Positions 15,517 to 38,437 of a stretch of DNA of 50,894 nt are shown here, piece after piece. The notes under the pieces were generated by a model. The model ran no database searches. It was not told the DNA's origin and saw only the letters and a program-made list of their open reading frames with translations. The DNA lies in assembly GCA_937927515.1 (NCBI GenBank), contig CALBDO010000025.1, positions 1-50,894 on the forward strand, given 5' to 3'. Position 1 is the stretch's first letter. The number at the start of each line of letters is the position of its first letter. The stretch is from Candidatus Kapaibacterium sp. (GTDB lineage: Bacteria; Bacteroidota; Ignavibacteria; Kapaibacteriales; UBA2268). The position numbers and the translations under genes were made by a program.

Positions 15517-15538
15517 ATTTTAAATTATTAATTACTCA

Positions 15539-15566
15539 GGCTGCCAACTTTTGGCGGCCTTTTTTA
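15539..15566 (+). terminator. Intrinsic terminator after raiA
   Basis: A 9-bp stem (15539-15547 with 15551-15559, one G-U pair) around a CTT loop is followed by seven T. Confidence 0.85.
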
Positions 15567-15609: not shown

Positions 15610-16659
15610 ATGGCTTTTAAGGTAAGTTTAAATGTAATAAAGCTCTTTTTTATATTTTCCTCGACTCTTATTATTTCTTGCCAAGAGAGTACCGAGTGGC
15701 CCAATATGAATCAAAAGGATTATTCAAAACCGCCCGTGGGATTTCCACCAATACCTTTTCCGTCGGATAACCCCTATAGTCGTGAAAAGTTTGAACTTGG
15801 ACGCCGTTTGTTCTATGAAAAAATACTTGTCAAAGATAGTTCATTCAAGTCTTGTTCTCATTGTATGAAACAAGCTCATAATTTTCAAGACAATGTGCCA
15901 AATAGTTTGGGTCTAAACAAAATTGCAGAGCCAAGAAATACAATGTCCCTTACCAACGTTGCCTATTTTGATAAAATTTTTTGGGATGGTAGGGGTTCAA
16001 GAATAGAGCAGCCAGCATATAGAAGCTTGTTTCTTCCATACATTTTTGGTTTAGATACCAACGAGTTGCAGAAGCGTTTGGAAAATCATCCAATTTATCC
16101 AAATCTTTTTCGTGCCGCTTTTGGCGAAAATGTTAAACCAAGTGCGTGGTTGGTTGCTAAAGCCATTTCAACATTTGTCCGTTGTCTCGTTAGCGGAAAT
16201 TCAGCATATGATAAATTTTTGCGAGGGGATTCTAATGCATTAACAGAATCTCAAAAGCGTGGAATGAAACTGTTTTTTAGTGAACGTACCAAATGTTCAG
16301 TTTGTCATAGTGGTTTTCTTTTTACAGACTTGCAATTTCATAATACTGGGACAACAAACCATTATTTCGACTTTGGTAGATTTTACGTTACAAAGGACTA
16401 CAAGGATAGAAACAAATTTCTTACACCTTCTTTGAGAAATGTTGAAGTTTCGGCACCATATATGCACGATGGAACTTATAAAACCCTTGAAGAAGTAATA
16501 GAAAATTACAATCGTGGTGGTTTCCCAAACATCAACAAGGATACTTTAATTAAGCCGCTGAATTTAACAAAAGAAGAAAAAGAGGACCTGATAAATTTCT
16601 TAAAAGCTTTGACTGATTGGGAATTTTTAAAAAATCCAGATTTTGCAGAACCAAAGTAA
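15610..16659 (+). CDS. Di-heme cytochrome c peroxidase/MauG-like lipoprotein with altered first heme site
   Basis: The 349-residue protein belongs to the bacterial di-heme peroxidase family (COG1858). The start at 15610 gives a lipoprotein signal with C24 (IISC) as the acylated residue. The C-terminal heme site is canonical, C229-S-V-C232-H233. The N-terminal site reads C82-S-H-C85-M86: the proximal His of CxxCH is Met. Other family features are present: FWDGRGSRIEQ, FVRCLVSGNSAYDKFLRGD, the NVEVSAPYMHDGTYKTLEEVIE segment in parts, and a closing LxxFLKALTD. The neighbouring paralogue at 16.7 kb keeps CANCH at the same place. It is expected on the periplasmic face of a membrane. It may be a modified oxidase rather than a peroxidase. 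Confidence 0.9.
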   Translation: MAFKVSLNVIKLFFIFSSTLIISCQESTEWPNMNQKDYSKPPVGFPPIPFPSDNPYSREKFELGRRLFYEKILVKDSSFKSCSHCMKQAHNFQDNVPNSLGLNKIAEPRNTMSLTNVAYFDKIFWDGRGSRIEQPAYRSLFLPYIFGLDTNELQKRLENHPIYPNLFRAAFGENVKPSAWLVAKAISTFVRCLVSGNSAYDKFLRGDSNALTESQKRGMKLFFSERTKCSVCHSGFLFTDLQFHNTGTTNHYFDFGRFYVTKDYKDRNKFLTPSLRNVEVSAPYMHDGTYKTLEEVIENYNRGGFPNINKDTLIKPLNLTKEEKEDLINFLKALTDWEFLKNPDFAEPK

Positions 16660-16708
16660 AGCATAAATTACTATGAAATTATTTAAAAATTATTAAAGCA
16701 CAATAAAA

Positions 16709-17752
16709 ATGACAAACAAAAGGAATATATGTGTTGCATTGTTGCTTACTTCATTTTTCACCTTGCATTCGTGTAAAAATCTTAATGATACCGTTCAGGA
16801 GAACGATAAAGATTTTAGTATTCAACCAAAAGGGTTTCCGTCTATACCATTTCCTTCAGACAATCCTTATTCACCAAGCAAAGAAAAGCTCGGTCGGTAT
16901 TTATTTTTTGATAAGATACTTTCAAAAGATTCAACATTTTCATGTGCAAATTGCCATAATCCGAGATATTCTTTTTCTAATAATGTACCCAATCCAATTA
17001 CTATCAATGGGTTTCCATTACCAAGAAATGTAGCATCGCTTGTAAATGTTGCATACAGGGACAAGTTAGGCTGGTCGGGTGTTGAGGAATCATTGGAAAA
17101 TGCTATTTATCACGATTTTCACAGTCCACTCTTCTTTGATAATGATACGAATGAAATTTTTCGTAGGTTAAGTCTCCATCCCTTCTATCCTAAAATGTTC
17201 GAAGAATCTTTTGGAGTTGGTGTCAAGCCACATCCTTATCTTGCCGCAAAAGCAATAGCAACATTTGTTCGTTCATTAGTTTCTGGTAACTCTCGATACG
17301 ATAAATACTTGAGAGGAGATACAACAGCACTATCTGATAAACAAAAATATGGAATGAAATTATTTTTCAGTAAAAAAACAAACTGCTCTGCTTGCCACAG
17401 TGGTTTTCTTTTTACCGACTTGCAATTTCACAATACAGGTACTACTAATCATTACTTCGACTTTGGACGGTTCTATGTCACTCGGAATTATATGGATAGG
17501 AATAAATTTCTTACCCCATCTCTAAGAAATGTTGAAGTTACTGCCCCCTATATGCACGATGGAACTTATAAAACACTTGAAGAGGTAATAGAAAACTACA
17601 ATCGGGGTGGTTTCCCAAATATTCACAAGGATTCTCTGATAAGACCGTTGAACTTGACACAATATGAAAAAGAAGCTCTGGTGGAGTTCTTAAAATCCCT
17701 AACTGATTGGGAATTTTTAAATCAGACCAGATTTAGGTCCTTTGGATATTAA
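16709..17752 (+). CDS. Di-heme cytochrome c peroxidase/MauG-like lipoprotein
   Basis: The 347-residue protein is a tandem paralogue of the preceding gene, with long near-identical stretches in the second half. The signal ends at a lipobox cysteine C22 (LHSC). Both heme sites are canonical: C79-A-N-C82-H83 and C226-S-A-C229-H230. The TAPYMHDGTYKTLEE segment and FVRSLVSGNSRYDKYLRGD match the family. Such proteins reduce H2O2 or, as MauG does, carry out high-valent-iron oxidations, receiving or giving electrons through small redox carriers. Heme insertion would need the Ccm system encoded at 34-38 kb. It lies 49 bases after the first copy. Confidence 0.93.
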   Translation: MTNKRNICVALLLTSFFTLHSCKNLNDTVQENDKDFSIQPKGFPSIPFPSDNPYSPSKEKLGRYLFFDKILSKDSTFSCANCHNPRYSFSNNVPNPITINGFPLPRNVASLVNVAYRDKLGWSGVEESLENAIYHDFHSPLFFDNDTNEIFRRLSLHPFYPKMFEESFGVGVKPHPYLAAKAIATFVRSLVSGNSRYDKYLRGDTTALSDKQKYGMKLFFSKKTNCSACHSGFLFTDLQFHNTGTTNHYFDFGRFYVTRNYMDRNKFLTPSLRNVEVTAPYMHDGTYKTLEEVIENYNRGGFPNIHKDSLIRPLNLTQYEKEALVEFLKSLTDWEFLNQTRFRSFGY

Positions 17753-17793
17753 ATAATTTCGTTTTAAATTCGTTTGGACTTTGGTATAATTAA

Positions 17794-18576
17794 ATGTTTA
17801 CTAAGCTCGTGAAATTAGATAGGCGAGATTTTTTAGAATTGATTTTTACTATCACAATAACGGAATTTATATACCCACATAAACTATTAGGATTTATTAA
17901 GCCTAATCTTTTGAAAAAAGGGGACTATCTTCAAGGTATTTATGGAATTTCACTTGACAATTATCCCGAGTTATTACCCATATGGGGCTCAATCAGAATC
18001 AAAATTGAAAATACCTTGATGTTTTATCCACAAGTAATCATTGTACATGTTCCTAAAGAGGAATATGGTGTGGAGTTTATAGCTGTATGCGAAAGATGTC
18101 CCCACGAGGGTTATCCAGTTAAAGACCTTGACCCTGATTTGCATCTTTTTGAGTGTTCTGGGCATGGTACACTTTTCGACGTAACTGGAAGATATGTATG
18201 GGGACCAGCATCAAGAGATTTGGAAAGATTGAATCTTGAATATGATGGTGATAAAACAATATATTTGGAAGTTGCATTGTACCCTTTAAATATGTTAAAT
18301 GAGGAAAGAGAATTTGCTTACTTACGTCAAAACTTTCCCAACCCATGTAGTGATAAAACAAAAATTGTTTTTGGCACTTCGAAACCTGCTAATGTTGATA
18401 TCTTTTTGGTCGATTTTAAAGGTAATGTAGTCCAAAAAATATTCTCAGGTTTATGTACTGAAAAAATCAATGAAATTATTCTTGATGTTTCTAATTTTAC
18501 TTCTGGCTCTTATATTCTTAAAATGAATGTTGATGGAAAACACTTTTTTACAAAAAAATTGATAGTTGAGCATTAA
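17794..18576 (+). CDS. Rieske [2Fe-2S] protein with C-terminal T9SS sorting domain
   Basis: The 260-residue protein carries a Rieske cluster site: C102-P-H104 and C121-S-G-H124, the C-x-H and C-x2-H ligand pairs. It lacks the extra cysteines that form the disulfide in bc1-type Rieske proteins. The N-terminus has a DRRDFLEL segment, matching the RRxFL core of a Tat signal. From about residue 168 (LRQNFPNP) to the end (KKLIVEH) it has a type A T9SS sorting domain with NVDIFLVD and GSYILKMNV strands. This predicts a folded iron-sulfur protein exported and placed on the cell surface. It lies 41 bases downstream of the second peroxidase. Confidence 0.85.
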   Translation: MFTKLVKLDRRDFLELIFTITITEFIYPHKLLGFIKPNLLKKGDYLQGIYGISLDNYPELLPIWGSIRIKIENTLMFYPQVIIVHVPKEEYGVEFIAVCERCPHEGYPVKDLDPDLHLFECSGHGTLFDVTGRYVWGPASRDLERLNLEYDGDKTIYLEVALYPLNMLNEEREFAYLRQNFPNPCSDKTKIVFGTSKPANVDIFLVDFKGNVVQKIFSGLCTEKINEIILDVSNFTSGSYILKMNVDGKHFFTKKLIVEH

Positions 18577-18581
18577 GGAAT

Positions 18582-19118
18582 ATGAATCTTCTTCTTTCAC
18601 GCAGATTTTTTCTAAAAAAGTTAAGTGAGCTTGTGAATGGAATAGGAATTAGTTTCGTCTTTTTACCATTATTAAATTGCGAGAGAGATTGGGTAATTTC
18701 ACCATCTTTAAAAGGAGAATACATCGAGTTGGACCTGACTAATGAAAAAAGTGATGTTCTTGGGCTTCCAGTTTTGAATTTTGTTGGTTCTGGCGTAACC
18801 AAACAATTCAATCAAATTAACTATGGAATTCCCTTAATTATAGTAAGAATTAAAAAGGAGGGTAAGGAGGACGATTTTAGATGCTTTTCTGGAATGTGTA
18901 CACACGACCAATGCTTTGGCAAAGACAAAGTACGGGCTCCACTAAAAATTGAAACCATAGGTAGTAACAAAGTTTGCCGTGTGGTGTGCACTTGCCATGG
19001 TTCTGAGTTCGACTTATTAAACAACGGTGTTGTCCTCAAAGGACCAGCCGAGAAACCCTTACGAGAATTTAAATGCGAATTCAATTCAAATAAAAACACC
19101 ATAAAAATATTCTTTTAA
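18582..19118 (+). CDS. Rieske [2Fe-2S] protein, bc1-type cluster site, Tat-like signal
   Basis: The 178-residue protein starts with SRRFFLKKL, a good twin-arginine motif, followed by a hydrophobic stretch ending LLNC (C33), so it may also be a lipoprotein. Cluster ligands are C106-T-H108 and C136-x-C-H139. The extra cysteines C111 and C138 sit where bc1/b6f Rieske proteins have their stabilising disulfide (CTHxxC and CxCHGS), and the Ser after the second box is typical of high-potential clusters. No cytochrome b gene is nearby, so it probably does not belong to a bc1 complex. It starts 5 bases after the T9SS Rieske gene stop. Confidence 0.88.
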   Translation: MNLLLSRRFFLKKLSELVNGIGISFVFLPLLNCERDWVISPSLKGEYIELDLTNEKSDVLGLPVLNFVGSGVTKQFNQINYGIPLIIVRIKKEGKEDDFRCFSGMCTHDQCFGKDKVRAPLKIETIGSNKVCRVVCTCHGSEFDLLNNGVVLKGPAEKPLREFKCEFNSNKNTIKIFF

Positions 19119-19122
19119 GAAA

Positions 19123-19515
19123 ATGAAATTTTTTATTCCATTGATTTTAGGTATTATATTGTTTTTTCTACTCACGTGTTGTTCTGCAAATTTGTCGAAT
19201 ACTACTGCCGATGAGCTACCAGAAAATAATCTTAGTTTTCAGAACCACATTCTACCAATTTTGAAAAATACTTGCGGGCTTTCCTATTGTCATGGTGAAG
19301 TAGCTCCGCAAGGTGGTGTTCAAATCTACGACTATTACACTCTAGTTACATCATATAATGGTGCATTAATAATTCCAGGTAATCCTGATGGCAGTGTTCT
19401 TGTACAAATAATCGAAAATAGATTACCCCATAATCCCGTTCTTAACTGGAAGTTAACTCAAAATCATATCCGAAGTATCAGAAAATGGATTTTAGAAGGT
19501 GCAAAAAATAACTAA
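19123..19515 (+). CDS. Small cytochrome c-like lipoprotein with CX4CH motif
   Basis: The 130-residue protein has a lipoprotein-type signal (LLTCC, C19 or C20). The mature part follows the layout of the planctomycete/Bacteroidota cytochrome c-like domain: ILPILKNTC, YCHGEVAPQGGVQIYDY, a IPGNPDGSVLVQII segment, and IRSIRKWILEGA at the end. The heme-type motif is C-G-L-S-Y-C-H, with four residues between cysteines instead of two. In this family such spacings are known, and whether heme is bound is uncertain. It lies 4 bases after the Rieske gene, at the end of the redox cluster. Confidence 0.72.
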   Translation: MKFFIPLILGIILFFLLTCCSANLSNTTADELPENNLSFQNHILPILKNTCGLSYCHGEVAPQGGVQIYDYYTLVTSYNGALIIPGNPDGSVLVQIIENRLPHNPVLNWKLTQNHIRSIRKWILEGAKNN

Positions 19516-19550: not shown

Positions 19551-20570
19551 ATGGAAAAAAGGTTTTTATTCTTTATCGTTTCATTGATTTTGATTTTTCT
19601 TAATTCCTGCGGAGAGAAAAAGCAAATTGTTGAAATCAAGGAGCTTGCAACTTATGAGGACCCTATTTTAGGTTTTTCAATTAAATATCCAACGAACTGG
19701 GAGATTCAAAAATACCCCGGCGACCGATTCCTTGCCTTTACAACCAAAACAGTAATTAAAAGATTTAGGTCATTTGATTCCGAAGGTGAAAGTGGAGCAA
19801 AAATTGAGCTTTTAGCAGTTAAGCTTGCCGATGGTCAGACTTTGGATTCTATAATGGAAAAAAAACAATTCACACCCGAAACTTACTCCACTCCAGTTAA
19901 AGTTGTCATTGATGGGGTTGAAGCTTACAAACAAACTTACGAGTTTCCACTTGGCGATGGAATCTTCCAAGGTGAAATATATTATGCTCAAAAAGACCCT
20001 CAGGTAGTTACAATCATATCCTTCGAGGCTTTTGGTAGCACTTTTGGTAACTATAAACCATCTTTCGAGCAAATATTAAATTCTGTCAAACTTGCTTACA
20101 TTCCACAAGTAACACAGGATACAATCAAGAAAGTAATAGAAGCACCACCACCAAGTTCAAATTTGGTTGAGTATAAAGGAGAGGGATTTACAATAAAAAT
20201 ACCGGATAATTTTGATGTTCGAAATCCCAATGTTGGTGGAGCAATTAAATCGTATCAATACATTGGAGAAAGGAGACTTGATTGCGATATAAGAATTGAT
20301 ATTTTTGATGCGTCTAAACAGAGCAAACTTGAAAAAATTGTTGAAGACAATAAAGCAAAACATAAGAATGTGGAGCCTAAAAGGACTGAGATAGGTGGTC
20401 AAAATGCTTATTTCTTTGAATACAATCCTATACAAAACGTTAAAAGTCGAGTCTATTATGTAATTCATAGTAATAAACTATATCGGATAACAATGAATTG
20501 GTTTGTAGGTGAAGAACCTCTTTATAAACCAATTTTTGAAAAAAGCCTTTCTTCGTTTAAATTCCAATGA
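19551..20570 (+). CDS. Lipoprotein with two PsbP-like domains
   Basis: The 339-residue protein has a lipobox signal (FLNSC, C20). Two copies of a ~150-residue domain follow: the first begins at YEDPILGFSIKYPTNWEI, the second at YKGEGFTIKIPDNFDV (about residue 204). Both have the alpha/beta pattern and the closing SFEQILNSVKL / IFEKSLSSFKF of the PsbP/Mog1-like fold seen in many envelope proteins. A proline-rich linker (IEAPPPSS) separates them. The function is unknown. It lies 35 bases downstream of the redox cluster and could be its last gene. Confidence 0.7.
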   Translation: MEKRFLFFIVSLILIFLNSCGEKKQIVEIKELATYEDPILGFSIKYPTNWEIQKYPGDRFLAFTTKTVIKRFRSFDSEGESGAKIELLAVKLADGQTLDSIMEKKQFTPETYSTPVKVVIDGVEAYKQTYEFPLGDGIFQGEIYYAQKDPQVVTIISFEAFGSTFGNYKPSFEQILNSVKLAYIPQVTQDTIKKVIEAPPPSSNLVEYKGEGFTIKIPDNFDVRNPNVGGAIKSYQYIGERRLDCDIRIDIFDASKQSKLEKIVEDNKAKHKNVEPKRTEIGGQNAYFFEYNPIQNVKSRVYYVIHSNKLYRITMNWFVGEEPLYKPIFEKSLSSFKFQ

Positions 20571-34566: not shown

Positions 34567-36834
34567 TTATTTGTGTTCATCTTTTTGTGTTCGTTTCATA
34601 GAATATTTGAAGACAGCAATTATAAATCCAGCAACGGTAAAAATAACCCCAATCCAAACAAGTAATATGAAGGGCTTCACGGTGACGTCGGCGATGAATA
34701 TCTCCTGGCCAAAACTTAGTTCCACAGTAGATTTCTCTAAGTTCTCTTCAGGTGTGAACTTTGTGAATCCAATTGCAAAATCTTTTGTAGGAACATTTTT
34801 CCATATGGGACTAAATGAACCAGATTTCATATTCAGCAATGAGAGGACAGTATCTTTATAATAATTACCATCGATATAATAATCCACAATTATTCCAAAC
34901 GTAAAATTTTCTTGACTTTTACCAAAGTGCATAGAGCTCATATCATAAGAGACAAATCTAATGGAGTCTTTTTCAGACCAAGGGGCTGATAGAATCTCAC
35001 CCTTTTTGAAAGAAATAGGAGAGTAAAATTCATTAAACGTAAAAGATTTTGGTGCCAAGTATAAATCTTTTGTTAAATATGTTTTAATATCTGGTTCATA
35101 GTATGGTTGCTCGAAATTATTAAAACTGCTCCAATATACTATTGGATAGACTATTGAATTTTTATCTTTATCGACAATCTTAATTTTAAAACGATACTTT
35201 TCCCGGTCTGGTTTCTCAATTTCAATCCTTTCCTTTTTCAACAAGTGCAACTCATAACCAAATGCCCTCGAAATCTTTCCCTCTTGAAGTTGGATTGTTT
35301 GGGTGTCTTCGAAACCTCCCGATAAAAGGGCACCGACAATCAAAAATGAGATACCTAAATGAGAAAGAAGAGCACCAATTTTTAAGTTCCTCATACTCAG
35401 CTTGTTCAAAAGTTTCTCACCATTAATAATTAGTGAAAAAACGGATGAGAAAATTAAAAGACTGTAGAGTAGATTACTACGCGGTATAAAAAGGAAAATT
35501 ACTGCTATACCTAAGGATGGAACAATTGAATAAATTAATTTATTTCTAAACGTATTAGTAGGCGTTTCTCTCCAGTGAAGTAACAATGAAATACCATTGA
35601 AAATAAGGATTAGAAAGGCAATGGGAGTCATCCATTGATTGTAAAATGATGGTTCAAGAGCAACTTTTTTTGCACCAACAAATCCTTGAATTATTGGTAA
35701 GCTTGTTCCAACTATTATGACAATAGAAGCGATTATTAAAATAACAGCACCAACATAGGTCATAAATTGTCGGCTATTGATTTTGATTCGCTCTTTAATT
35801 TCGGGAACGAACTTTGCACGGGTAATAAATAAAATGAGAGGGAAAAATGTAAAAACGCCAAGATAAACTAAAAGCAAAATGTTTACAGTTTTACCAGGGT
35901 CGACAAAAGAATGAACTGAAGTATCACTTAGTACACCACTCCTTGTTAGATAAGAAGCATAAAGAACGCCCAAGAAAGCAAGCCAAGAGAGTAAAAAGCT
36001 AATTCTGAAACCGGTTGACTTAATCCTCTGAATTAGTAAGCTATGAATTAAAGCAGTTATGAAAATCCAAGGAACGAGCGAGGAATTTTCAACAGGGTCC
36101 CAACCCCAAAAACCGCCCCAGCCAAGAGTTTCATAAGCCCAAAAACCACCAAGCATAATTCCAAGTCCAAGGATACCAGCAGCGATTAATGACCAAAATG
36201 ATGCAGCTATTGTATATTTTTCAAAATTTTTCTCCAAGAAGCTTGTCAAAAGTAGAGTGAAAGGAACAGTAACTAAACTGTAGCCAAGAAAAAGAATTGG
36301 TGGATGAATTGCAATCCAATAATTTTCAAGTATTGGATTTAATCCCCTTCCATCGGGAGGTACAAAGTCTTTAGGCATATCACTTTCTGGGAATGATTCC
36401 CAGATATTTTCGAATGGACTTTTGAAAATAATTATTAAAACTACGAAAAAGATAGCCAGTGAGAAAAAGGATACCGGTAAATAACCAAGTTGATGCTTTT
36501 TGAGATAGAGAAAGAAAACAAGTCCGACCAATGACATCCACAGTGCCCAAAGTAGGAAAGAGCCTTCCTGCCCAGCATAAAAGGTCGAAAGTAATAGCAA
36601 GAAGGGCAGATTTCGTGATGAGTAGCTCCAAACATAAGTTAGGGTAAAATTATGCGATAAAATATTAGAAACAAGGAATAATGAAGCAAGTAAAATACAC
36701 ACTGTTGCAGAAAAAAAACTAATTTTTGCGTATTTCAGGTATTTATGATTTTGGTAGTATTCTGCGAAGATAAATAACAAAAACGACAAAAAAAATGCAA
36801 ATGAGGATATATATATTATTAACTTTCCAAACAT
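34567..36834 (-). CDS. ccmF: Cytochrome c maturation protein CcmF (heme lyase subunit)
   Basis: The 755-residue multi-span protein has the CcmF signature: the tryptophan-rich WWD motif WGWGGFWGWDPVENSS at about 239-252, IHPPILFLGY (H177) and further conserved His in membrane segments, plus a C-terminal periplasmic domain ahead of the last membrane segment. It transfers heme from CcmE to apocytochrome c in System I biogenesis. It is 7 bases after ccmE. No ccmH or ccmI is in the window, so the TlpA-like lipoprotein downstream may take over part of the apocytochrome handling. Confidence 0.95.
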   Translation of the reverse strand: MFGKLIIYISSFAFFLSFLLFIFAEYYQNHKYLKYAKISFFSATVCILLASLFLVSNILSHNFTLTYVWSYSSRNLPFLLLLSTFYAGQEGSFLLWALWMSLVGLVFFLYLKKHQLGYLPVSFFSLAIFFVVLIIIFKSPFENIWESFPESDMPKDFVPPDGRGLNPILENYWIAIHPPILFLGYSLVTVPFTLLLTSFLEKNFEKYTIAASFWSLIAAGILGLGIMLGGFWAYETLGWGGFWGWDPVENSSLVPWIFITALIHSLLIQRIKSTGFRISFLLSWLAFLGVLYASYLTRSGVLSDTSVHSFVDPGKTVNILLLVYLGVFTFFPLILFITRAKFVPEIKERIKINSRQFMTYVGAVILIIASIVIIVGTSLPIIQGFVGAKKVALEPSFYNQWMTPIAFLILIFNGISLLLHWRETPTNTFRNKLIYSIVPSLGIAVIFLFIPRSNLLYSLLIFSSVFSLIINGEKLLNKLSMRNLKIGALLSHLGISFLIVGALLSGGFEDTQTIQLQEGKISRAFGYELHLLKKERIEIEKPDREKYRFKIKIVDKDKNSIVYPIVYWSSFNNFEQPYYEPDIKTYLTKDLYLAPKSFTFNEFYSPISFKKGEILSAPWSEKDSIRFVSYDMSSMHFGKSQENFTFGIIVDYYIDGNYYKDTVLSLLNMKSGSFSPIWKNVPTKDFAIGFTKFTPEENLEKSTVELSFGQEIFIADVTVKPFILLVWIGVIFTVAGFIIAVFKYSMKRTQKDEHK

Positions 36835-36841
36835 ATCAACC

Positions 36842-37222
36842 TCACTTTTTTAAATTTTCTAATTCCCCCTCGTACTTCGAAGGGCATTTGGTAATTATTT
36901 GACTGGCTTGGAAAAAGGTATCTTGAACATTTCCTTTTACGACGAATTCTGGCGCTATTGTAAAATTGTTTGGTTGAGGTCCATTGAAACGGACAAATTT
37001 GACTTTGCCCTTTTTGTCTCTCATGTAAAACTCTAAGTAATTAGTATTTGGGTCGTAGTTAATGGGCATTTCCTTAACGAGTGTGCCGACAACTTGAACT
37101 TTTTTGTTTAATTTTTCAGCATTTTGAAAGTCTGTATATTCAATGACATTTCTGTTGAATGAAAGTAAAAGAAGAGTCAGAAAAATAATAGCAATGCCAC
37201 CAATTAGAATGTATTTCTTCAT
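36842..37222 (-). CDS. ccmE: Heme chaperone CcmE, CxxxY variant
   Basis: The 126-residue protein has one N-terminal membrane anchor and the OB-fold body typical of CcmE (VQVVGTLVKE, FYMRDKKGKVKFVRF). The residue that binds heme covalently is His in the standard HxxxY motif of proteobacteria; here it reads C113-P-S-K-Y117. Cysteine-type CcmE is known from Desulfovibrio and other lineages. It holds heme in the periplasm and hands it to CcmF. Its start codon overlaps the ccmD stop (ATGA), so the two are coupled. Confidence 0.93.
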   Translation of the reverse strand: MKKYILIGGIAIIFLTLLLLSFNRNVIEYTDFQNAEKLNKKVQVVGTLVKEMPINYDPNTNYLEFYMRDKKGKVKFVRFNGPQPNNFTIAPEFVVKGNVQDTFFQASQIITKCPSKYEGELENLKK

Positions 37223-37380
37223 TTTCTTTCCTCTGATTTATTTGAAATTATATTTGTTTTCTTCTCTAACGATGTAACTTTTTTATCAAGATAAAAAAGG
37301 TAATACAAAAGGCCAATCCAAATAATCAATGCAATAATCAAGACAACATAAAGTTGATTTTTAATTAGAAAGTCCACCAT
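37219..37380 (-). CDS. ccmD: Small membrane protein CcmD
   Basis: This 53-residue ORF starts at ATG 37380 inside the end of ccmC and stops at TGA 37219-37221, overlapping the ccmE start. It has one membrane helix (about residues 10-30: LYVVLIIALIIWIGLLYYL) followed by a charged tail (LDKKVTSLEKK), the layout of the CcmD-like family. CcmD helps release heme-bound CcmE from the CcmABC complex. Size, position between ccmC and ccmE and both overlaps support it. Confidence 0.85.
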   Translation of the reverse strand: MVDFLIKNQLYVVLIIALIIWIGLLYYLFYLDKKVTSLEKKTNIISNKSEERK

Positions 37381-38437
37381 TTTGCCTCCGAAGTTCTAAT
37401 ACTTTACTAATTTTGGAAATCCTTACACGAATATTTAACAACCAAAAGAAAAGCATAGTAAAAGACAAAAAGCCGAAACTAAAACCAAGGGTTTGTAAAA
37501 TGCTCAAAGTATTTTCTTGAGAACTCAGTATAGGACCTATATTAGGGCTGTTTGCGGAACCGGGGTGATTACCTTCTAGGAGCCGTGGCATAATAAATAC
37601 AAGGAATGGTACAGTTATGAACGCAATTATTGAATAAACAGAACTTAAACGAGCTTTAATTTCATAGTTTTCAATGCTTTGCCTCAAAATGAAATAGGAA
37701 AAGTAGATTAGCAGTAATACGAAAATTGAAGTTTGGCGGGGGTCCCAATTCCAGAAAGAACCCCAATTGATTTTTGCCCAAATCATTCCAGTGACTGTGG
37801 CAAGTACAGCAAAAAGAGAACCCAATAAAGCAGAGGAAGCGGAAATCTCATCGAATTCAAACTTTTTCGTACGGAGCAATTGTACAGAATTGAACATTGA
37901 TATCAAATAAGCAATTACAGCAACCCAAGCGCAAGGAACATGCAAGTTCATAATTCTAATTTGCTCACCCAATTGAGGAACGTAAGGCAAAACTAATAGG
38001 GGATTGGACGCAACAAATTTTGAATATATAAATTTTTTACCTCGGGAATCATAGGATACCTCAGCAATAATTCTATCCTGGGGCTTGAAACTATAATCAA
38101 TCATACTGTTGGGTACAAGTAAGATTTCTTTAGCTGCTGGATTGTTTGGATTGGATACCAAAATTTCGTATGAATTCGAGCCAAGTGAGTCTTGGTGTTT
38201 ATTTATATTATCTATTTTGAAGTACAATGGTGCCGAAAAATTTGGAATGTTTTGAGCAATGAATTTAAAAGTTGCAAAATTTGAAGCAACATAAGGAACA
38301 AAAGTTAACAGAATTGCAATGAGCAAAAAAATAACAGCAGAAATTTTCCACCATTTTGGTTTTCTCTCATAGAGCTTGGGTACAAAACCAAGAATTAAGC
38401 CTAAAATTACGCCAGTCCCAATTATTATACCTTTCAT
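37361..38437 (-). CDS. ccmC: Cytochrome c maturation protein CcmC, with a large extra loop
   Basis: The 358-residue protein shows the CcmC heme-handling WWD motif WGSFWNWDPRQTS at about 225-237 and the RIMNLHVPCAWVAV segment (H166). CcmC loads heme onto CcmE. Standard CcmC is about 230-250 residues; here an extra ~90-residue polar segment (about 60-150) lies between the first membrane helix and the HVP motif, on the periplasmic side. It overlaps ccmD by 20 bases. ccmA and ccmB are not in the window. It is the first gene of the operon, 50 bases from the upstream RsbW-like gene. Confidence 0.92.
   Translation of the reverse strand: MKGIIIGTGVILGLILGFVPKLYERKPKWWKISAVIFLLIAILLTFVPYVASNFATFKFIAQNIPNFSAPLYFKIDNINKHQDSLGSNSYEILVSNPNNPAAKEILLVPNSMIDYSFKPQDRIIAEVSYDSRGKKFIYSKFVASNPLLVLPYVPQLGEQIRIMNLHVPCAWVAVIAYLISMFNSVQLLRTKKFEFDEISASSALLGSLFAVLATVTGMIWAKINWGSFWNWDPRQTSIFVLLLIYFSYFILRQSIENYEIKARLSSVYSIIAFITVPFLVFIMPRLLEGNHPGSANSPNIGPILSSQENTLSILQTLGFSFGFLSFTMLFFWLLNIRVRISKISKVLELRRQNGGLSN

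Follow-up and report, generated by a model that had tools for sequence, protein, structure and literature searches.

The window analysed here, a 50,894-base stretch of DNA from Candidatus Kapaibacterium sp. (CALBDO010000025.1; contig C25 of a 2.39 Mb genome in 41 contigs, labelled G000), carries a row of five + strand genes that encode two MauG-like proteins (MauG1 and MauG2), two Rieske proteins (RieskeT9, named for its type IX secretion system (T9SS) sorting domain, and Rieske2) and a small cytochrome-like lipoprotein (PSCyt). The five genes are real and conserved. MauG1, MauG2, RieskeT9 and Rieske2 form a four-gene core, of which the five-gene set is the genus-level form. Judged by their active-site residues, MauG1 and MauG2 are probably not peroxidases, and the cluster may encode an envelope redox module that relays electrons to a surface Rieske protein, a reading we favour tentatively. 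Carriage of electrons at the envelope is the most likely role that the sequences suggest, and it is from them that we infer each mechanistic step.

A four-gene core conserved across genera

The five genes follow one another at intervals of 49, 41, 5 and 4 bases (Table 1), in the order and on the strand given by the first-pass annotation of this DNA, which had described them as consecutive and closely spaced. Family genomes are labelled G### and loci in relatives L###; the window's genus comprises G000, G001, G002, G003 and G004. The order MauG1-MauG2-RieskeT9-Rieske2-PSCyt-PsbP-TPR is intact in G000, G001, G002 and G004, and G003 is interrupted by contig ends, one immediately 5' of RieskeT9 and one inside MauG1. 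Because the unrelated flanking genes rodA, accD and hpf are likewise kept within the genus, conservation there proves little by itself.

Beyond the genus the flanks are unrelated, and the core is complete in two further genera and partial in two more. MauG1-MauG2-RieskeT9-Rieske2 is found in G022 and G036, which belong to other genera, MauG2-MauG1-RieskeT9-Rieske2 in G009 and MauG1-RieskeT9-Rieske2 in G018, all with different flanks; in G010 a MauG copy with a CxxCH haem-1 motif is followed by RieskeT9 and then by the end of the contig. Only the Rieske pair stands together in G026 and G039, the MauG1 gene of G026 lying on a separate contig and G039 giving no match at E <= 1e-60. RieskeT9 adjoins Rieske2 in 11 of 11 genomes (G010 left out for its contig end), and a MauG gene adjoins RieskeT9 in nine of 11 (G003 left out for its contig ends); PSCyt adjoins Rieske2 in all five genomes of the window's genus and in none of six others. 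Since the order survives in genera whose flanks differ, the cluster is more than chance. Co-occurrence and gene order in relatives were among the checks that the first-pass annotation had proposed, and with the order kept in other genera its cluster is not refuted.

Among 54 family genomes, MauG1 with the CSHC motif described below occurs in 11 and full-length RieskeT9 in 12 among the matches listed (up to 49 candidates were scored per genome). Both occur in 10 (Fisher 2.9e-8, kinship ignored, five genomes being from one genus). The sole CSHC genome without RieskeT9 is G025, which holds two CSHC copies. A wider scan, with a single genome for each species, looked for SCSHC[ML]KQ or HYFD[FRL]GR[YF], patterns that variants such as CSHCMQQ would escape. 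It gave 26 loci, and in 20 of these the record title reads Kapaibacterium/Kapabacteria or Ignavibacteria. Nine of the 26 have CSHC, under the titles Kapaibacterium or Kapabacteria (five), Ignavibacteria (three) and Bacteroidetes/Chlorobi group (one). One scan locus, on RCNO01000012.1, where MauG1 sits at the contig end, belongs to MS-B_bin-24 of PMC6338057, which describes hot-spring Kapabacteria ('Ca. Thermonerobacter thiotrophicus') and metagenome-assembled genomes with alternative complex III and with complex III not detected. Weak MauG1 relatives, at 28% identity, are encoded by two contigs of a viral collection (L177 and L178), and the plasmid search gave 334 records, every one below 60% identity.

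A divergently transcribed gene for a CxC lipoprotein lies next to the MauG genes in G009, G018, G022 and G036 (the last copy cut by a contig end). The lipoprotein was rejected as a component on account of relatives in 51 of the 54 family genomes; it serves as a marker of the site and does not belong specifically to the cluster. The protein (L035 2213-2737, L037 4087-4614, L039 9934-10494) is thioredoxin-like by eye and has no convincing Pfam or NCBIfam match.

That no described system is known to have this set of genes, as first remarked from the sequence, agrees with our literature searches: among the titles and abstract openings listed, mostly outside subscription journals, we found no published account of the cluster.

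MauG1 and MauG2 as variants of the MbnH/MauG kind

Both proteins score over the Pfam cut-off for CCP_MauG. The first match of each is TIGR04039, at 266.9 bits (E 2.3e-79) for MauG1 and 257.8 bits (E 1.3e-76) for MauG2, and neither reaches the curated cut-off of 362.85 bits. For MauG1 and MauG2 respectively, TIGR03791 gives 177.2 and 180.3 bits against a cut-off of 443.85, RoxA-like_Cyt-c 17.0 and 18.7 bits, under its cut-off of 26.7, and NCBIfam RoxC 10.2 and 12.3 bits against 900. The fold comparison was made with the predicted model of MauG1 (predicted local distance difference test, pLDDT, 89.8), structure predictions being fed with window and related-locus sequences only. Its closest structure is 6e1c (Z 37.0, root-mean-square deviation 1.7, 311 aligned residues, 39% identity), titled as a MauG-like protein associated with microbial copper homeostasis, followed by bacterial cytochrome c peroxidases (bCCPs; Z up to 31.7) and then MauG (3l4m; Z 28.1). 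Going by sequence, the pair is a variant of the MbnH/MauG kind and not a member of MbnH, either by the curated cut-off or by partner.

The first-pass annotation had taken both proteins to be di-haem. This stands for MauG2, which has both CxxCH motifs; MauG1 has just one canonical haem motif, its N-terminal motif being CSHCM. A loose pattern finds lipobox-like signals in 18 of the 20 MauG copies of the clade that is defined in the next section.

MbnH-like genes occur in other settings among the relatives. In several order-level relatives one lies directly 3' of thyX, as at L062 (1772-3642; thyX by PF02511); L063, L066, L101 and L106 are alike by eye. At L149 (7877-8839, 320 residues) and L153 (6411-7397, 328 residues) MbnP with a T9SS tail is encoded beside MbnH-like genes; we read T9SS-tailed MbnP as a putative MbnH substrate addressed to the surface.

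Distal and proximal residues

We aligned 68 sequences, drawn from 105 gathered (sequences sharing an identical C-terminal stretch were dropped) and from 6e1c; the genome's own cytochrome c peroxidase (CCP) was included. The 68 rows comprise 20 clade copies and 48 other relatives, many of them close kin, so that the counts are not independent. Within the clade, 12 copies from 11 genomes, MauG1 among them, form a group defined by CSHC, and eight have CxxCH. Residues are named after MauG: Gln103, Pro107 and Trp93 are named in PMC6405878, and Glu113 and Tyr294 in its reference list, the positions being assigned by the present alignment.

The distal Gln is kept in none of the 20 clade copies and the distal Glu in two, against 47 of 48 for each in the other relatives. 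At these two positions MauG1 has Pro and Ile, and MauG2 Ala and Phe. The 12 CSHC copies have Met (six), Leu (five) or Lys (one) at the proximal position of haem 1, Gln in none, and Ile at the Glu position throughout. In the eight CxxCH copies beside Rieske genes, the proximal His is present in all, Gln in none and Glu in two, with Phe in its stead in four and Val in two. The 48 other relatives have His in 48, Gln, Glu and Tyr in 47 each and Trp in 39. All 20 clade copies retain the haem-2 CxxCH, the Tyr and the inter-haem Trp. Pro107 was left out as a criterion, with Pro in 16 of the 48 other relatives only. Sixteen clade copies lie beside Rieske genes; of the others, that of G003 is cut by a contig end, that of G026 is on a separate contig and G025 supplies the last two.

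According to PMC6405878, bCCPs, MauG and BthA have the distal Gln, Pro and Glu in common, Gln and Glu are linked to the peroxide-binding step, and BthA with its Glu changed to Gln is impaired in peroxidase activity as well as in its bis-Fe(IV) state. The first-pass annotation had proposed a peroxidase or a MauG-style oxidase. Distal Gln and Glu are lost in both window copies, and the haem-1 proximal His also in MauG1; given these losses the proposal is not supported, and we rejected a peroxidase reading of the two proteins.

The CSHC site and the history of the paralogues

As far as its sequence tells, the CSHC site is not a site in decay, because the MauG1 proteins of the window and of G001 share 90-92% identity over residues 81-160. 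Across four genomes of the genus, MauG1 shows a non-synonymous divergence (dN) of 0.12-0.24, a weak support for constraint; only dN was used, as synonymous sites were saturated or uncomputable for most pairs. Fixed in the 12 CSHC copies are S83 (12), H84 (12), E107 (11), M112 (12), Y137 (12), R138 (11), S139 (11) and I145 (12). These pocket residues occur in at most one quarter of the 48 other relatives (Met112 in five, Glu107 in none), and Y137 is found also in six of the eight CxxCH copies.

A covalent c-haem at this site appears unlikely. Variants of cytochrome b562 with CXXCM, CXXCK or CXXCR did not mature with Ccm, and the CxxCK form is named for NrfA (PMC4158909). Residue 86 would hardly be a ligand, since Met and Leu interchange there within the genus. 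His84 might be a metal ligand, or an acid-base group beside a dithiol. A CSHC-type copy with CSHCK is encoded at L147 (7723-8769), in the same genome as a CSHCM copy (L085).

In a quick tree from which the haem-1 motif and the distal columns were omitted, the 20 clade copies form one group (Shimodaira-Hasegawa-like approximate likelihood ratio test, SH-aLRT, 99). The whole-protein tree requires two changes for CSHC. With the haem-1 columns omitted, a single CSHC clade is not rejected by the N-terminal half (approximately unbiased test, p 0.121) and is rejected by the C-terminal half (p 0.0066). Within the window, MauG1 and MauG2 are 89-90% identical over residues 225-300 and 38-45% identical over residues 81-160. 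To us this suggests that the haem-2 half, which looks as if homogenised within the genome, has evolved in concert; alternatively, MauG2 of the genus may have regained its His.

Two different Rieske proteins

The two Rieske proteins differ from each other, and one carries a T9SS sorting domain (Por_Secre_tail over the Pfam cut-off) and is hence addressed to the surface, both as first annotated. RieskeT9 scores over the cut-offs of PF00355 (26.3 bits), PF18962 (42.3 bits) and TIGR04183 (32.5 bits), and was classed as a T9SS substrate on its sorting domain together with SprA_N, which is over cut-off in G000. The genome encodes TatC as well as SprA_N, the latter silent in its 14 control genomes. 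R10, R11 and L14 of the RieskeT9 signal, which is of the twin-arginine translocation (Tat) type, are invariant in 11 rows, as are C102, H104, C121 and H124 of the CxH and CxxH motifs; two rows have one residue more in the second motif. RieskeT9 is without the extra cysteine pair that Rieske2 has in common with bc-type Rieske proteins. The nearest Rieske chains to its model (pLDDT 83.8) are 8hn2 (Z 11.6), 5cxm (10.9) and the arsenite oxidase small subunit (10.6), which are tied. Rieske2 matches PF00355 at 37.7 bits, and its best PDB match is SoxF (1jm1, E 3.2e-5).

The genome has five Rieske matches, of which one other lies in a cluster of multihaem and b561-type cytochromes and one near a YceI gene. 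A bc-type cytochrome b (PF13631) has no match in the genome, the control matching in eight of 14 genomes, and a remnant of complex III was rejected on this ground.

Rieske lipoproteins of the lineage tend to adjoin envelope redox proteins. In an order-level relative (L042), a Rieske2 relative is flanked on one side by YceI, a small protein and a CxxCH protein whose beta-barrel match is under cut-off, and on the other side by two immunoglobulin-type proteins; both of these have T9SS-tail matches that stay below the Pfam cut-off, and one has CxxCH. This L042 cluster looks like an outer-membrane redox conduit of the lineage. Clusters of this type (L042 4877-11410) recur, by size and motif, at L044, L047 (where the YceI match was checked) and L049, and in the own genome at L142 and L143.

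A possible envelope relay and the alternatives

We favour a relay partly because the Rieske lipoproteins of the lineage stand with envelope redox proteins. The two Rieske proteins would receive their cluster in the cytoplasm and then be exported folded via Tat, Rieske2 remaining anchored in the envelope and RieskeT9 reaching the surface by way of T9SS. The MauG-like proteins, having given up peroxidase action, would use haem 2 and the Trp to pass electrons between the envelope on one side and the surface Rieske proteins on the other. On the cell side, electrons would come from or go to the cytochrome c pool; we propose alternative complex III as its feeder because the search for a bc complex gave none. 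MauG1 probably has no c-haem at its CSHC site, which would instead hold a small metal site or a dithiol/disulfide. A more specific version of the relay, which we regard as doubtful, has MauG1 swapping its active-site c-haem for a non-haem Cys82-x-His84-Cys85 site, perhaps with Met112 and Glu107, so that a hybrid relay would run to or from a [2Fe-2S] protein exported by Tat and then by T9SS.

If true, this would be a hybrid haem/non-haem surface electron route that needs no multihaem cytochrome and no peroxide. RieskeT9, if exported as predicted, would be a cofactor-loaded protein that crosses two export systems in succession. In the bCCP/MauG superfamily, a single di-haem scaffold is known to serve different chemistries. 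The present clade, natural and conserved and with most copies by Rieske genes, has lost Gln from all 20 copies, Glu from 18 and the proximal His from 12; such a clade lets the scaffold be examined without peroxide activation. The relay would also bear on envelope electron handling in Kapabacteria that lack complex III.

Several points weigh against the relay. The His/Tyr haems of MauG are of low potential, a poor fit with a high-potential Rieske partner. Other Rieske genes of the genome, one of them in the multihaem cytochrome cluster, could relay electrons without MauG proteins. The CxxCH copies of G009 and G010 keep the distal Glu, and in G018, G025 and G026 a CSHC MauG1 is found without a CxxCH copy at E <= 1e-60. 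Indeed, no single member is obligatory, RieskeT9 being missing from G025 and the Rieske pair standing without an adjacent MauG gene in G039 and G026. Support for the clade of 20 is also weaker when the halves of the protein are taken separately (93/59 and 83/84).

MbnH modifies MbnP, and MauG modifies the precursor of methylamine dehydrogenase (preMADH). The MauG-like pair could thus be a maturase that modifies RieskeT9 (or Rieske2) in the periplasm, driven by something other than peroxide, which we consider unlikely, though the strongest of the rivals. Its best argument is that relatives in the family and order pair conventional MbnH-like genes with MbnP, as in G007, G019 and G054 (PF20243 over cut-off), and that RieskeT9 occupies the place of T9SS-tailed MbnP. 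MbnP itself (PF20243, E <= 0.001) goes unmatched in G000 and throughout the 13 genomes that make up the Rieske/CSHC set, and matches in three of three relatives chosen for having it. An overlooked MbnP partner was rejected on this search and its matching controls; TIGR04052 likewise gave no match in the genome, its control being silent too. Surface or periplasmic precedents are MopE and CorA, with SACCP and CorB (PMC3912023, PMC3621798). The maturase has to do without the distal Gln throughout the clade and without the Glu in 18 copies, when in BthA the Glu-to-Gln change is harmful to peroxidase activity and to the bis-Fe(IV) state (PMC6405878), and W64 is the sole nearly invariant Trp in the RieskeT9 rows. 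Distinctly unlikely, in our view, is an enzyme using O2, in which MauG2, with its hydrophobic distal pocket, would bind O2 at haem 1, the Rieske proteins would donate and MauG1 would act as partner. The Phe and Val found at the Glu position of CxxCH copies fit such an enzyme, as do RoxA, in which O2 binds near a Phe and peroxidase activity is absent (PMC6311187), and the tandem di-haem relatives of P. aeruginosa, a fatty-acid dioxygenase and a diol synthase (PMC4496055). The fold, however, is nearest 6e1c; RoxA and FadCcp are larger (~65-72 kDa) and have a His/His haem 2 where the clade has Tyr, no substrate gene is linked to the cluster, and the G009 and G010 copies keep their Glu.

The CSHC site, perhaps with Met112, could instead bind a soft metal such as copper, or form a redox disulfide gating the flow of electrons, in a thiol, metal or redox sensor. 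The fixation of H84, Met112 and Glu107 in the CSHC copies and the association of 6e1c, by its title, with copper homeostasis lend this some support, but the cluster is without a regulator and the CxC lipoprotein nearby is not dedicated to it, and we think a sensor quite improbable. Least probable is an ordinary pair of di-haem CCPs, fed by the Rieske proteins and guarding the envelope from H2O2. Homology to CCPs is clear (PF03150), and the hot-spring relative meets strong diel oxygen swings (PMC6338057). The two copies, however, are those from which Gln and Glu are gone, with the haem-1 His gone as well in MauG1, and the genome has a separate CCP that keeps these residues, at G000:C1.

Borders of the locus and neighbouring genes

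The hairpin listed in Table 1 sets the upstream border, and the terminator scan found no + strand hairpin inside the five-gene cluster; the scan is weak evidence, as it counted 5 terminator-like sites over the two strands and shuffled sequences gave 3.3 +/- 1.9. The five genes have neither a cytochrome b nor a dehydrogenase or oxidase as neighbour, as had been said of them. Their description as an envelope redox set stands for two CCP_MauG and two Rieske proteins, all over their Pfam cut-offs; the fifth protein, which has a CX4CH motif and a lipoprotein signal assigned by eye, falls just under the cut-off of PSCyt1 (PF07635, 21.8 bits against 22). Its gene exists as annotated, and its link to the cluster is found only in the window's genus. 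In another family (L048 9502-10964), a PSCyt-like and PsbP-like pair lies near a Rieske gene and a CxxCH protein.

The ferritin gene (33303) and the genes for CcmF/NrfE-like and CcmC-like proteins (34567-38437), which had been thought to make a supply of haem and iron plausible, are present in the window, ~14-19 kb off and with other genes between. We find no reason to assign them to the unit, and their neighbourhood is not evidence for a module.

Table 1. Positions of the cluster genes, their motifs and adjoining features in the window
Feature	Position	Strand	Remarks
Terminator-like hairpin with T tail	15538-15560	+	10 pairs, 6 G-C; between hpf and the cluster (upstream border)
MauG1	15610-16659	+	Lipoprotein-like (IISC, residues 21-24); PF03150 E 7.8e-37; MbnH/MauG fold
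MauG1 CSHCM (residues 82-86)	15853-15867	+	In place of haem-1 CxxCH
MauG1 haem-2 CSVCH (residues 229-233)	16294-16308	+	Both Cys and His in 20/20 clade copies
MauG1 Tyr300	16507-16509	+	Aligns with the MauG haem-2 ligand Tyr294; Tyr in 20/20 clade copies
MauG2	16709-17752	+	Lipoprotein-like (LHSC, residues 19-22); di-haem, MbnH/MauG type
MauG2 haem-1 CANCH	16943-16957	+	
MauG2 haem-2 CSACH	17384-17398	+	
Near-alike haem-2 halves	16087-16386 and 17177-17476		MauG1 and MauG2
RieskeT9	17794-18576	+	Tat-type RR 17821-17826; Rieske motifs 18097-18105 and 18154-18165; T9SS type A domain 18334-18567
Rieske2	18582-19118	+	Tat-type RR signal and lipobox-like LLNC (by eye); CTHxxC 18897-18914, CTCH 18987-18998
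Small cytochrome-like lipoprotein (PSCyt)	19123-19515	+	Haem motif CGLSYCH at 19273-19293; member at genus level only
PsbP-like lipoprotein	19551-20570	+	PF18933 49.7 bits; follows the cluster in the same genus; association uncertain

Comparison with known systems

RieskeT9 has its Rieske domain in common with the Rieske subunits of bc1 and b6f complexes and of arsenite oxidase, and with Rieske ferredoxins. It differs in its T9SS tail and in its setting, a genome in which cytochrome b is unmatched and a locus that no arsenite oxidase adjoins. RoxA/RoxB and FadCcp are likewise CCP/MauG relatives that have gone past peroxidase chemistry, FadCcp also as tandem paralogues (PMC6311187, PMC4496055). 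Besides the size and the haem-2 ligands already given, an intact haem-1 CxxCH sets them apart from MauG1. In the methanotroph systems SACCP/MopE and CorB/CorA, a di-haem CCP-type protein is cotranscribed with a cell-surface partner (PMC3912023); by description that partner is a kynurenine-bearing copper protein, whereas here it is a Rieske protein.

The two closest comparisons are with the namesakes of the fold. MauG, which serves in the biogenesis of methylamine dehydrogenase, is like the window proteins in the position of the haem-2 Tyr, in the inter-haem Trp and in fold (Z 28.1 to 3l4m). It differs in its distal Gln and Glu, both of which are replaced here, and in TIGR03791, for which the window proteins are far under cut-off; there is no methylamine dehydrogenase gene in the cluster. 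MbnH/MbnP (TIGR04039/TIGR04052, 6e1c) is like the present cluster in fold, in sequence and in having a partner gene beside the di-haem gene. The cluster of the window departs from it in scores that stay under cut-off, in the lost distal Gln and Glu, in a MauG1 without the haem-1 His, and in partners that are Rieske proteins.

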